This document shows positions 42,003 through 50,754 of a DNA stretch of 50,754 nucleotides, piece by piece (positions within the stretch are counted from its first letter, which is position 1; each line of letters starts with the position of its first letter). The position numbers and the translations under genes are program-made. The stretch comes from Actinomycetota bacterium. Its GTDB lineage: Bacteria > Actinomycetota > Thermoleophilia > Gaiellales > Gaiellaceae. The stretch lies in NCBI GenBank assembly GCA_005883995.1, contig VAXB01000028.1, forward strand, positions 1-50,754, given 5' to 3'. Under the pieces are notes generated by a model. That model worked only from the letters and a program-made list of their open reading frames with translations, was not told where the DNA came from and did no database searches.

Positions 42003-44411
42003 TCAGGCGCGCGCCGCCGCGGCCTCGGGCGACTTCGCGCCCGTCGGCGACGCCGCGAACGGGACCTCGACGTAGAACACCGAGCCGCCGCCCTCGTTCG
42101 GCTCGACCCAGATGCGGCCCGAGACCCGCCGGACCAGCTCCCGGCAAATGTAGAGGCCGAGCCCCGTGCCGCCGATGCCACGTGTCATGTCGGGATCGAG
42201 CCGATAGAACTTCTCGAAGATACGCCGCTGCTCCGACGGTGGGATCCCGAGACCCTGATCGGCGATGGCGAAGCGGAGATAGCTGTCTGCCGGCTCGAGC
42301 CGGAGCGTGACGTCGCCGCCGTCCGGGGAGTACTTGATCGCGTTGTCGACGACGTTCGTGAGCACCTGGCGAAGCTGTCCCTCGTCGGCCGCGACCGCGG
42401 GGACGCCTTCCGGAGGCACGGCGAGCGCGACGGTCACCTCTCCCGGGAGATGCGTTTGCGCTGCCGCGACGACCGTGCCGGCGAGGTCGACGGCGTCACA
42501 GCTCTCGATGTGCACCTCCAGGCGGTCCGCGTCGAGCTGGCTCGCGAGCAGGAGGTCGTTCACGATTTCCGCGAGCCTCGACGACTCCTCGAAGATCACT
42601 TCGAGCAGCTTGTGCTGCATCGACTCCTCGAGCTCGAGGTCATCGCGCCGGAGTGTGATCGCAGAGCCGTAGATCGCAGCGAGCGGGGTTCGCAGCTCGT
42701 GCGACACCGTTGCCACGAGGTCCTGCCGGATCTCTTCGAGTGCGCGTTCCTCGGTCAGGTCGCGGAACGCGTACACGACGCCGTCCTCGATCGTGATCCC
42801 GGACAGCGAAAGCCAGAGCTCGCGGCCGCCGATCTCGAACGGCATCGTCTCCGTCGCCGCGGTCCCCGGCGACGCCGGTGCCGGCGGCGCGCCATGCCGC
42901 TCGAACCCGGGGAGGACGTCCGCCACGCGCCGCCCCACGACGGTCTCGCGTGGCAGCTCGGTGATCCTCTCCGCGGCGCGGTTCCAAAGCCGGATCACGC
43001 CCTGCGAATCGACGAGGACGACGCCGTCCCCGATCGACGCGAGGACGCGCGCCGCCTGCGCGCGCTCCTCGACCTCTCGGTAGAGCCGCGCGTTCTCGAC
43101 GGCGCTCGCTGCGCGCCGGCCGAGCTCTTCGGCGAGCCGGAGATCCGCCTCATCGAAGCGCCGCCCAGACTCCGCCGCGACGAACGCGATCGCACCGACC
43201 ACTCCGTCGCGGGTGCGGAGCGGCACGCACATGTACGAGCGCAGCCCGAGCTCGCGCAACAGGTCGAGGTGTAGCGCGTCGACGGCCGCCGCCGCGAGCA
43301 CGTCGTCGGGGATGTCGGACACGACCTCAGCCTCGCCGGATCGGACGACGCGCGACGAGCCGGCCACGTTGCCGCTGGGATAGCGCTCGCGCAACTCGTG
43401 CGCGAACGCAACCTTCGCCGGCTCCGTATGGGCGAGCGCGAGCGATTCCAGCGCGCCCTGCTCGTCGACGAGATCGACGAGGCACCAGTCGGCGATCTCC
43501 GGGACGGCGAGCTGGGCGACGGATTGCAGCGTTGCCCGGTAATCGAGCGACGACGCAAGCTCAGCGCCCGCGCGAAGGAGGAAGTCCTGTGCCTGCTCCG
43601 TCCGCTTCTGGCTGTCGATGTCGGTGGCGGTCCCGACCCAGAAGTCGATCGCGCCGTCGCCCCGGCGCATGGGAACAGCACGGCCGAGGTGCCACCGATA
43701 TGCGCCCTCGCGGTCCCGGAACCGGTACTGCATCTCGAAGACGTCGCCCGACTCCAGCGTCTCGCTGCGTCGATCGAGCGTGGGCTGGAGGTCCTCCGGG
43801 TGAAGGACGTCAATCCACTCCTGGCCGTTCGGCGGAGCGGCGTCAAAGCCCGTGTACTCGAACCAGCGGCGGTTGAGGTAGGTGGTGCGGCCGTCGGCGC
43901 CCGACGTCCACACGATCTGCGGCATCGCATCGGCGAGCGCGCGGTAGCGCTCCTCGCTCGCGCGGCGAACCTCGGCGAGCTCGGTCTCACGCAGCAGCGC
44001 CGCCTGTTCTTCGAGCTGCAGCGTCTTGCGATAGAGGTCGATGAAGACGGCGACCTTGGACCGCAGGATGTCGGGGTTCAACGGCTTGAGCATGTAGTCG
44101 ACCGCGCCGGCGGAGTACCCGCGGAACACGTGCGCTTCGTCCGTCGAGATCGCGGTCAGGAAGATGATCGGGATCGACCGCGTCTTCTCCCGCTGCTTGA
44201 TCAGCGCGGCAGTCTCGAATCCGTCGAGGCCCGGCATCTGCACGTCGAGGAGGATCGCTGCGACGTCGTGCACGAGGAGCTGGCGAAGCGCCTCCTCGCC
44301 CGACGTCGCGCGGAGCAGGTTCTCGCCGAGCGGCTCGAGGATTGCCTCGAGCGCGACGAGGTTCTCGTCGCGGTCGTCGACGAGGAGGATGTTCGCAAGC
44401 CGATCGGTCAC
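42003..44411 (-). CDS. REC-PAS-GAF-PAS-HisKA-HATPase histidine kinase
   Basis: REC NILLVDDRDENL / ILLDVQMPGLDG; H-box [18 protein letters not shown]-box VVDNAIKYSPDGG; G-boxes; GTG start at 44411 overlaps cheB stop. Confidence 0.93.
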   Translation of the reverse strand: MTDRLANILLVDDRDENLVALEAILEPLGENLLRATSGEEALRQLLVHDVAAILLDVQMPGLDGFETAALIKQREKTRSIPIIFLTAISTDEAHVFRGYSAGAVDYMLKPLNPDILRSKVAVFIDLYRKTLQLEEQAALLRETELAEVRRASEERYRALADAMPQIVWTSGADGRTTYLNRRWFEYTGFDAAPPNGQEWIDVLHPEDLQPTLDRRSETLESGDVFEMQYRFRDREGAYRWHLGRAVPMRRGDGAIDFWVGTATDIDSQKRTEQAQDFLLRAGAELASSLDYRATLQSVAQLAVPEIADWCLVDLVDEQGALESLALAHTEPAKVAFAHELRERYPSGNVAGSSRVVRSGEAEVVSDIPDDVLAAAAVDALHLDLLRELGLRSYMCVPLRTRDGVVGAIAFVAAESGRRFDEADLRLAEELGRRAASAVENARLYREVEERAQAARVLASIGDGVVLVDSQGVIRLWNRAAERITELPRETVVGRRVADVLPGFERHGAPPAPASPGTAATETMPFEIGGRELWLSLSGITIEDGVVYAFRDLTEERALEEIRQDLVATVSHELRTPLAAIYGSAITLRRDDLELEESMQHKLLEVIFEESSRLAEIVNDLLLASQLDADRLEVHIESCDAVDLAGTVVAAAQTHLPGEVTVALAVPPEGVPAVAADEGQLRQVLTNVVDNAIKYSPDGGDVTLRLEPADSYLRFAIADQGLGIPPSEQRRIFEKFYRLDPDMTRGIGGTGLGLYICRELVRRVSGRIWVEPNEGGGSVFYVEVPFAASPTGAKSPEAAAARA

Positions 44412-44986
44412 GCGGTCTTGGCCACCTCCACGCACAGGCCGTAGATGAAGCGGCCGATCGCGTCAAGCGGGAGCACCGCGTCGGCAACGGTGGCCGCGAT
44501 CGCCGCGTCGGGCATCGCGCGCCGCTCGGCACCGATCGGGTCCTGGATGATCGCGACGCCGCCCCGATGCTTGATCGCGGCGAGGCCTGCGGCGCCGTCC
44601 TCGTTCGCGCCGGTGAGGATGACACCGATGACGGCGGAGCCGTATGCGTCCGCTGCGGATTCGAAGAGGACGTCGATCGAAGGGCGTGCGTACTGGACGC
44701 GTTCGTCCACCGACAGCGAGAACCAGCCGCGCTCCACGAGCAGGTGGTAGTCGGGCGGGGCAAGGTAGACGTTGCGGCGCGCGATCGGCGTCTTGTCCTC
44801 GACGTCGCGGACGGGCCGGTCGATGCGCAGCCCGAGCAACTCGCCGAGCGCGCCTTCGTGTGAGTCGACGTGGCGATGCTGCGCGACGACGATCGCCGGA
44901 TCGACAGCGGTCGGGATGTCCGCGAGGACGCGACCGATCGCGCTCAACCCTCCCCATGACGCGCCGATGCAGATCAGCTCGTACAC
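44408..44986 (-). CDS. cheB: CheB-type methylesterase, catalytic domain only
   Basis: ICIGASWGGLSAIGRVL, VAQHRH, GVILTGANEDGAAGL; no REC domain. Confidence 0.9.
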   Translation of the reverse strand: MYELICIGASWGGLSAIGRVLADIPTAVDPAIVVAQHRHVDSHEGALGELLGLRIDRPVRDVEDKTPIARRNVYLAPPDYHLLVERGWFSLSVDERVQYARPSIDVLFESAADAYGSAVIGVILTGANEDGAAGLAAIKHRGGVAIIQDPIGAERRAMPDAAIAATVADAVLPLDAIGRFIYGLCVEVAKTA

Positions 44987-50000: not shown

Positions 50001-50754
50001 ACGGCGGTTGTGACGTCGGCGATGTTGCGGACCTGCCCGGTGAGGTTGGAAGCCATCCCGTTCACCGACTCGGTCAGGCCGCGCCAGGTGCCGCTGACGC
50101 CTTCCACCTTCGCCTGGCCGCCGAGACGGCCCTCGGTGCCGACCTCGGTCGCGACGCGCGTCACCTCATTGGCGAACGTCGAGAGGCGGTCGACCATCGT
50201 GTTGATCGTGTCCTTGAGCTCGAGGATCTCGCCCTTCACGACCACGGTGATCTTGCGCGAGAGGTCGCCGTTCGCGACGGCGGTCGTTACGTCGGCGATG
50301 TTCCGCACCTGCGAGGTGAGGTTGCCGGCGAGCGTGTTCACGTTGTCCGTCAGGTCCTTCCACGTCCCGGACACGCCGGGCACGTTCGCCTGCCCGCCGA
50401 GGATGCCGTCGGTGCCGACCTCGCGGGCGACGCGGGTGACCTCGTCGGCGAAGGACGAGAGCTGGTCGACCATCGTGTTGATCGTGTTCTTCAGCTCGAG
50501 GATCTCGCCGCGCGCCTCGACCGTGATCTTGCGCGACAGGTCGCCGTCGGCGACCGCGGTGGTGACGTCCGCGATGTTGCGCACCTGGTTCGTAAGGTTG
50601 TCCGCGAGCTGGTTGACGTTGTTCGTCAGGTCGCGCCACGTGCCGGAGACGCCCTTCACCTCCGCCTGCGCGCCGAGTTGCCCCTCGACGCCGACCTCGC
50701 GCGCGACGCGCGTGACCTCGTCGGCGAACGACGACAGCTGGTCGACCATCGTGT
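46406..50754 (-). CDS. Nik1-like poly-HAMP hybrid histidine kinase (HAMP repeats, GAF, coiled coil, HisKA, HATPase), N-terminus beyond window
   Basis: ~92-aa tandem HAMP repeats, GAF-like region, coiled coil, H-box [37 protein letters not shown]. Sequence beyond ...[11 protein letters not shown] (~47.1 kb) is out-of-frame filler. Confidence 0.92.
48700..50754 (-). repeat. 276-bp tandem coding repeats encoding HAMP modules
   Basis: Seven full 92-aa units and one 47-aa short unit (49505-49645) with recurrent [23 protein letters not shown]...[14 protein letters not shown]...[22 protein letters not shown]...[12 protein letters not shown]. Confidence 0.9.

Follow-up and report, generated by a model that had tools for sequence, protein, structure and literature searches.

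Gene content of the operon

The stretch analysed here, 50,754 nucleotides at positions 1 to 50,754 of contig VAXB01000028.1 and called the window throughout, comes from a soil actinobacterium of the family Gaiellaceae. It carries an operon in which genes for a CheR methyltransferase and a CheB methylesterase stand beside the gene for a hybrid histidine kinase with a tandem array of HAMP domains (a poly-HAMP kinase). There is strong support for the view that the two enzymes act on this kinase and not in chemotaxis: the operon is conserved, genomes that carry it lack methyl-accepting chemotaxis proteins (MCPs) and CheW, and RsbM and RsbK provide a published precedent (PMC4574943). All genes of the operon lie on the minus strand, overlapping or a few bases apart, as follows:

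48653..50752, minus strand: kinase, tandem HAMP array with about 14 visible units (Pfam PF00672 seven times, PF18947 seven times)
48167..48580, minus strand: GAF domain of the kinase (PF13185, 2e-15, residues 725-862)
47828..48148, minus strand: coiled coil (signalling helix) of the kinase with Glu-Glu-Leu heptads, the proposed methyl-accepting segment (invariant Glu pair, predicted long helix, dyads covarying with CheR)
48080..48103, minus strand: candidate methylation sites E884 (codon 48103-48101) and E891 (codon 48082-48080), positions 181 and 188 of alignment A2
47114..47827, minus strand: HisKA and HATPase_c core of the kinase (PF00512, 5e-19; PF02518, 3e-30), phospho-His codon at about 47800-47798
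45850..47094, minus strand: triple REC, the C-terminal part of the kinase in relatives (PF00072, three stretches)
44992..45846, minus strand: CheR methyltransferase, RsbM-like (PF01739, 4.5e-42); S-adenosylmethionine-site and catalytic residues conserved in alignment to 1af7 and invariant in alignment A1
44408..44986, minus strand: CheB methylesterase without REC, 192 residues, GTG start at 44986 (PF01339, 7.6e-50); Ser/His/Asp triad kept in alignment to 1chd
42003..44435, minus strand: REC-PAS-GAF-PAS-HisKA-HATPase kinase, fourth gene of the module (Pfam domains; position conserved in family relatives)
41414..41785, minus strand: single REC protein downstream, a possible partner (PF00072, 5.8e-23; same position at loci L026 and L032)

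The open reading frame (ORF) that holds the HAMP array, GAF, HisKA and HATPase spans 50752-47108, as found by ORF prediction and Pfam scan. The N-terminus of this kinase is missing because the contig stops at 50754. The single full-length relative, at locus L028, measures 2395 residues from stop to stop and has 14+14 HAMP stretches; because L028 shows no strongly hydrophobic segment typical of a membrane helix, the poly-HAMP kinase is probably cytosolic.

A reading made earlier from the window's sequence alone had given the gene order as poly-HAMP kinase, triple REC, cheR, REC-free cheB and REC-PAS-GAF kinase. All five domain sets and their order were recovered by ORF and Pfam analysis, with the correction that the first two are one protein: kinase and triple REC form a single ORF in each of the eight relatives whose junction is readable, which rules out separate genes, and the window has a frame break near 47094, before the RECs. 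The interval that had been assigned to the operon, 44408-50754, holds the genes from the kinase to CheB and leaves most of the REC-PAS-GAF kinase (44435-42003) outside.

Conservation of the module

Within the reach of the contigs, all 10 family genomes that have this CheR show the same neighbouring genes. In named genomes scanned with the alignment of CheR, a kinase of GAF, coil, histidine kinase and REC parts adjoins CheR in members of Actinobacteriota, Cyanobacteria, Firmicutes, Proteobacteria and Bacteroidota. The full module, which consists of this kinase, CheR, usually CheB, and a REC-headed histidine kinase, occurs in at least five phyla. The input region of the kinase varies, with tandem HAMPs in Actinobacteriota and some Cyanobacteria, and CHASE3 with at most one HAMP in the others scanned. 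CheB adjoins CheR in most loci. It is absent next door in many loci from Paenibacillus, Neobacillus and Cohnella, including the RsbK/RsbM-type loci L048, L049, L051-L053, L055, L070 and L072.

Chemotaxis components in carrier genomes

No MCP, cheA or cheW had been visible to the sequence-only reading, and the observation holds genome-wide. In the window's own genome and 10 operon-carrying relatives of the family, the MCP domain PF00015 gave no match over the cut-off and PF01584 (CheW and the CheA C-terminus) gave no match. Since no CheW domain was found, CheA is lacking from these 11 genomes as well, and the search disclosed no complete chemotaxis system in any of them. Seven control genomes gave PF00015/PF01584 matches as positive controls. 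The window's own genome is a fragmented assembly, 85.7% complete; five of the ten relatives are at least 90% complete, and this CheR is the sole CheR in G005, G027 and G033 (94-97% complete). The sole weak MCP match in the family, 24.4 bits against a cut-off of 34.6, belongs to the coil of a CheR fusion protein rather than to a receptor. Of 20 named carriers from other phyla, 8 have no MCP over the cut-off, among them Neobacillus niacini, Flavobacterium macacae and Novosphingobium sp. Leaf2. On the strength of these PF00015 and PF01584 searches a hidden chemotaxis system is rejected, and because carriers are without MCP and CheW, the enzymes of the operon should act on a substrate other than MCPs.

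HAMP array, coiled coil and CheR

The sequence-only reading had offered either the HAMP array or the coiled coil as the part of the kinase that CheR and CheB tune. Homologues with a kinase core at least 50% identical were compared, 53 of them linked (CheR in the operon) and 28 unlinked (no CheR nearby); within the limits of the testing, the genomes of the unlinked ones hold no close CheR. HAMP repeats occur in 28 of 28 unlinked kinases, while the array was matched in just 21 of 53 linked ones. The array is therefore not what CheR goes with, and the comparison discards it as the CheR substrate; the coil is the part of the suggestion that gained support. Fifteen of the unlinked kinases belong to genus g74, and the eight g74 genomes searched have no CheR gene.

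Glu-Glu-Leu dyads in the coil (EELL excluded) number 1-6 in the 53 linked kinases and 0-2 in the 28 unlinked, typically about 3 versus 1 (Mann-Whitney p 2e-13, ignoring kinship), and at genome level the dyad count agrees with the presence of CheR (p 0.001, 21 genomes). Unlinked actinobacterial kinases retain the coil register, with SEEL and NEEL commonly changed to SAEL and NAEL. In five cyanobacterial genomes an array-less kinase of CHASE3-type length has 2-5 dyads but no CheR close by. Each of these genomes encodes, at another place, a CheR 60-62% identical to that of the window, and for this reason they were dismissed as counterexamples. Five cyanobacterial genomes with solely a low-dyad poly-HAMP kinase have no CheR above 34% identity.

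Within the coil, E884 and E891 (window numbering), seven residues apart, are invariant in 25 of 25 aligned linked kinases. A further Glu precedes E884 in 20 of these and E891 in 18, and differences in coil length among them are mostly multiples of seven. AlphaFold2 predicts one long helix for segment residues 142-227, with a predicted local distance difference test score (pLDDT) mostly of 85-92 to about residue 210, followed by a weak break, beyond which another helix continues into HisKA. In sequence, the E-E-L-x-[ST]-[ST] heptads are similar to Glu-Glu-x-x-Ala-Ser/Thr, the consensus of classical CheR sites. The coil sequence had no match in the literature searched for it.

Comparison with known systems

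The central idea of the sequence-only reading has experimental precedent, since in Bacillus cereus the CheR-type RsbM methylates RsbK on the signalling helix that joins GAF to HisKA, and thereby represses sigma B output. No cognate methylesterase is known for RsbM, and counts of RsbK-like kinases extend to 10 phyla (PMC4574943). A 2026 paper mentions an earlier-reported genomic association of RsbK with CheR (PMC12848376). PMC8175716, citing Lee et al. 2016, describes a related Pseudomonas cluster made up of BmsA, CheR, CheB and a further hybrid kinase; the proteobacterial loci identified in this analysis match it.

RsbK-RsbM and the window share a hybrid kinase of GAF, signalling helix, HisKA, HATPase and REC parts beside a CheR-type methyltransferase, and the methylated helix corresponds in position to the coil of the window kinase. 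RsbK has a CHASE3-HAMP membrane input and one REC, whereas the window kinase is poly-HAMP with three RECs; CHASE3 was not found in the full-length relative L028, which has the HAMP array instead. Unlike RsbM, for which no esterase partner is known, the window operon includes CheB and a second kinase. The output of RsbK runs through RsbY (REC-PP2C) and sigma B. REC-PP2C is present at the Neobacillus locus L048, which by its domains is an RsbY-RsbK-RsbM set, with 55% identity to the window in the kinase core and about 58% in CheR. It was found nowhere beside the window operon: SpoIIE/PP2C (RsbY-type) had no match among the scanned operon and downstream proteins, the gene upstream of the kinase lying beyond the contig end. 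The methylation sites of RsbK are reportedly E439, the main one, and E446, the minor one, and we take their spacing to be the same seven residues that separate E884 and E891. In RsbK-type kinases of Neobacillus and Paenibacillus, E439 and E446, counted back from H505 with equal length assumed, would presumably correspond to the second Glu in each of two EEL dyads that follow one another.

The likeness to the Bms cluster extends to a GAF hybrid kinase, CheR, CheB and a second hybrid kinase, and Caulobacter locus L054 and others match it by domains. The Bms-type order (GAF/three-REC hybrid kinase, CheR, CheB, REC-kinase) is also that of the window operon, with the frame broken before the RECs. 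BmsA has a CHASE3 sensor where the window kinase has its HAMP array. Adaptation in MCP chemotaxis employs the same CheR and CheB families and acidic dyads at seven-residue spacing, but the window system is without MCP, CheA and CheW, and its CheB is without REC. Soluble poly-HAMP hybrid kinases, of which the fungal group III kinases are an instance, occur in other actinobacteria with a tandem HAMP array feeding HisKA-HATPase-REC; those found without CheR are missing most of the Glu-Glu dyads of the coil, unlike the window kinase. The kind of system is thus already known. What is new is the poly-HAMP variant with CheB, the evidence that separates coil dyads from HAMP array as target, and the link to CheR-coil fusions described below.

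Proposed mechanism and alternatives

In our view the operon likely represents the RsbK-RsbM/Bms type of module in poly-HAMP form, in which CheR would methylate glutamates of the coil and CheB would reverse this, setting the state of the kinase. The kinase would sense through its HAMP array and GAF domain, and the signal would pass along the coiled coil into HisKA and HATPase. Phosphate would move from the kinase to its own RECs, and probably also to the second, REC-headed kinase. The best candidates for methylation by CheR are E884 and E891, together with the Glu-Glu-Leu heptads that follow; the resulting methyl esters would be hydrolysed by the REC-free CheB. Methylation may alter the packing of the coil and hence the kinase state, so that its level would either set the gain or lock the kinase off, no chemoreceptor being involved. 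To judge from the gene content, reversibility through the operon's own CheB is plausible.

Several points count against this proposal. For members of the module that contain CheB, methylation is something we infer from sequence comparison. CheB cannot be essential to the module, because several Firmicutes carriers have none beside CheR. The kinase-core tree (70 rows) needs just three changes of the linked label; it yields two or three well supported independent contrasts, none of them opposite in direction and together not significant, which is few for a link between dyads and CheR. Unlinked kinases often keep the putative methylated Glu and have mainly lost its dyad partner, and some linked kinases, L044 and L050 among them, have just 1-2 dyads. 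Deletion of bms genes other than bmsA reportedly gave no biofilm phenotype.

It is possible, though rather doubtful, that methylation is a constitutive off-lock, with CheB as unlocking trigger or housekeeping eraser, so that the kinase is gated without feedback adaptation. In B. cereus, loss of RsbM leads to constitutive output, and control of activation by demethylation was judged unlikely (PMC4574943); CheR lacks an adjacent CheB in several Firmicutes members; and a CheB without REC allows no feedback from the kinase through a receiver of its own. Set against this, CheB is kept beside CheR in most linked loci outside Firmicutes, and this retention suggests that erasing matters. As between a lock with release and feedback adaptation, the B. 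cereus data favour the lock, and the retained CheB favours reversibility. We regard it as unlikely that the coil merely docks CheR and CheB for the modification of another partner, either a REC domain or the second kinase: CheR can methylate the non-receptor protein PhoP in Salmonella (PMC8546571), but in the closest studied pair, RsbM-RsbK, it is the signalling helix that is reported methylated (PMC4574943), and the acidic dyads of the coil stand at heptad spacing, as MCP methylation sites do.

Modification of the HAMP array, which had been the lead version of the sequence-only reading, is very improbable. In its favour, no part of the window kinase is more conspicuous than the array, and HAMP helices form coiled coils akin to the helices of receptors. 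Against it stand the repeats kept by every unlinked kinase and the absence of an array from most linked ones, the scanned linked kinases of Firmicutes, Proteobacteria and Bacteroidota having CHASE3 and no more than one HAMP. Still less credible, to the point of being nearly negligible, is the notion that CheR and CheB are remnants of a lost or overlooked chemotaxis system. The incomplete, fragmented state of the window's own genome speaks for it, but the ten relatives, half of them at least 90% complete, likewise have no MCP over the cut-off and no CheW, the catalytic residues of both enzymes are intact, and gene order is kept across phyla.

By the textbook account, chemotaxis keeps its molecular memory in receptor methylation. 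Should ordinary sensor kinases in many phyla be tuned by the same chemistry, adaptation would be general to two-component signalling. The question in B. cereus is how repression by methylation is relieved without a methylesterase, and the CheB-bearing operons would make a reversible version directly testable. The coil signature, in turn, may serve as a sequence handle on the substrates of orphan CheR enzymes.

CheR-coil fusion proteins

In 296 genomes of the phylum a search was made with a DNA pattern that encodes N-E-E-L-xxx-N-E-E-L and takes no account of CheR. The pattern matched 29 genomes, and the reversed control matched 0. A CheR domain is carried by 23 of the 29 pattern ORFs, and two more are cut by contig ends. 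The four pattern ORFs without CheR are L218-L220 and L224; three of their four genomes have other CheR genes and G066 has none. The window's own genome also encodes a protein of this kind (L035, 7260-10201 of G000:C134), where a second CheB/CheR pair consists of a REC-free CheB followed by a CheR-PAS-coil-PAS protein with a coil made up of successive NEEL heptads, a common actinobacterial type. Such CheR-PAS-coil-PAS proteins, often with CheB, resemble the window kinase in their coil of NEELQSTNEELETT heptads. They differ in joining enzyme and presumed substrate coil in one protein, where the window operon has separate proteins. It is quite possible, if short of probable, that Glu-Glu-Leu coils form a second, widespread and MCP-independent class of methyl-accepting helix, acting in trans in hybrid kinases and in cis in CheR-PAS-coil proteins, and that with CheB they provide true reversible adaptation without chemotaxis.

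Kinases at L269, L271 and L272 (G223, G243) also have a NEEL/EEL coil before HisKA; they have no CheR nearby, and CheR is encoded elsewhere in the genome.

Genes downstream of the module

A HisKA_3 kinase downstream is split into two frames in the window (40161-41603 and 39407-40417) and is one ORF in relatives. Because this is a second frame break on the same contig, sequence errors in the assembly are likely, with real lesions as the alternative. Further downstream of the module, at window positions 38188-39396, lies an adenylate cyclase-REC-LuxR fusion, the halves of which are separate genes in L028.

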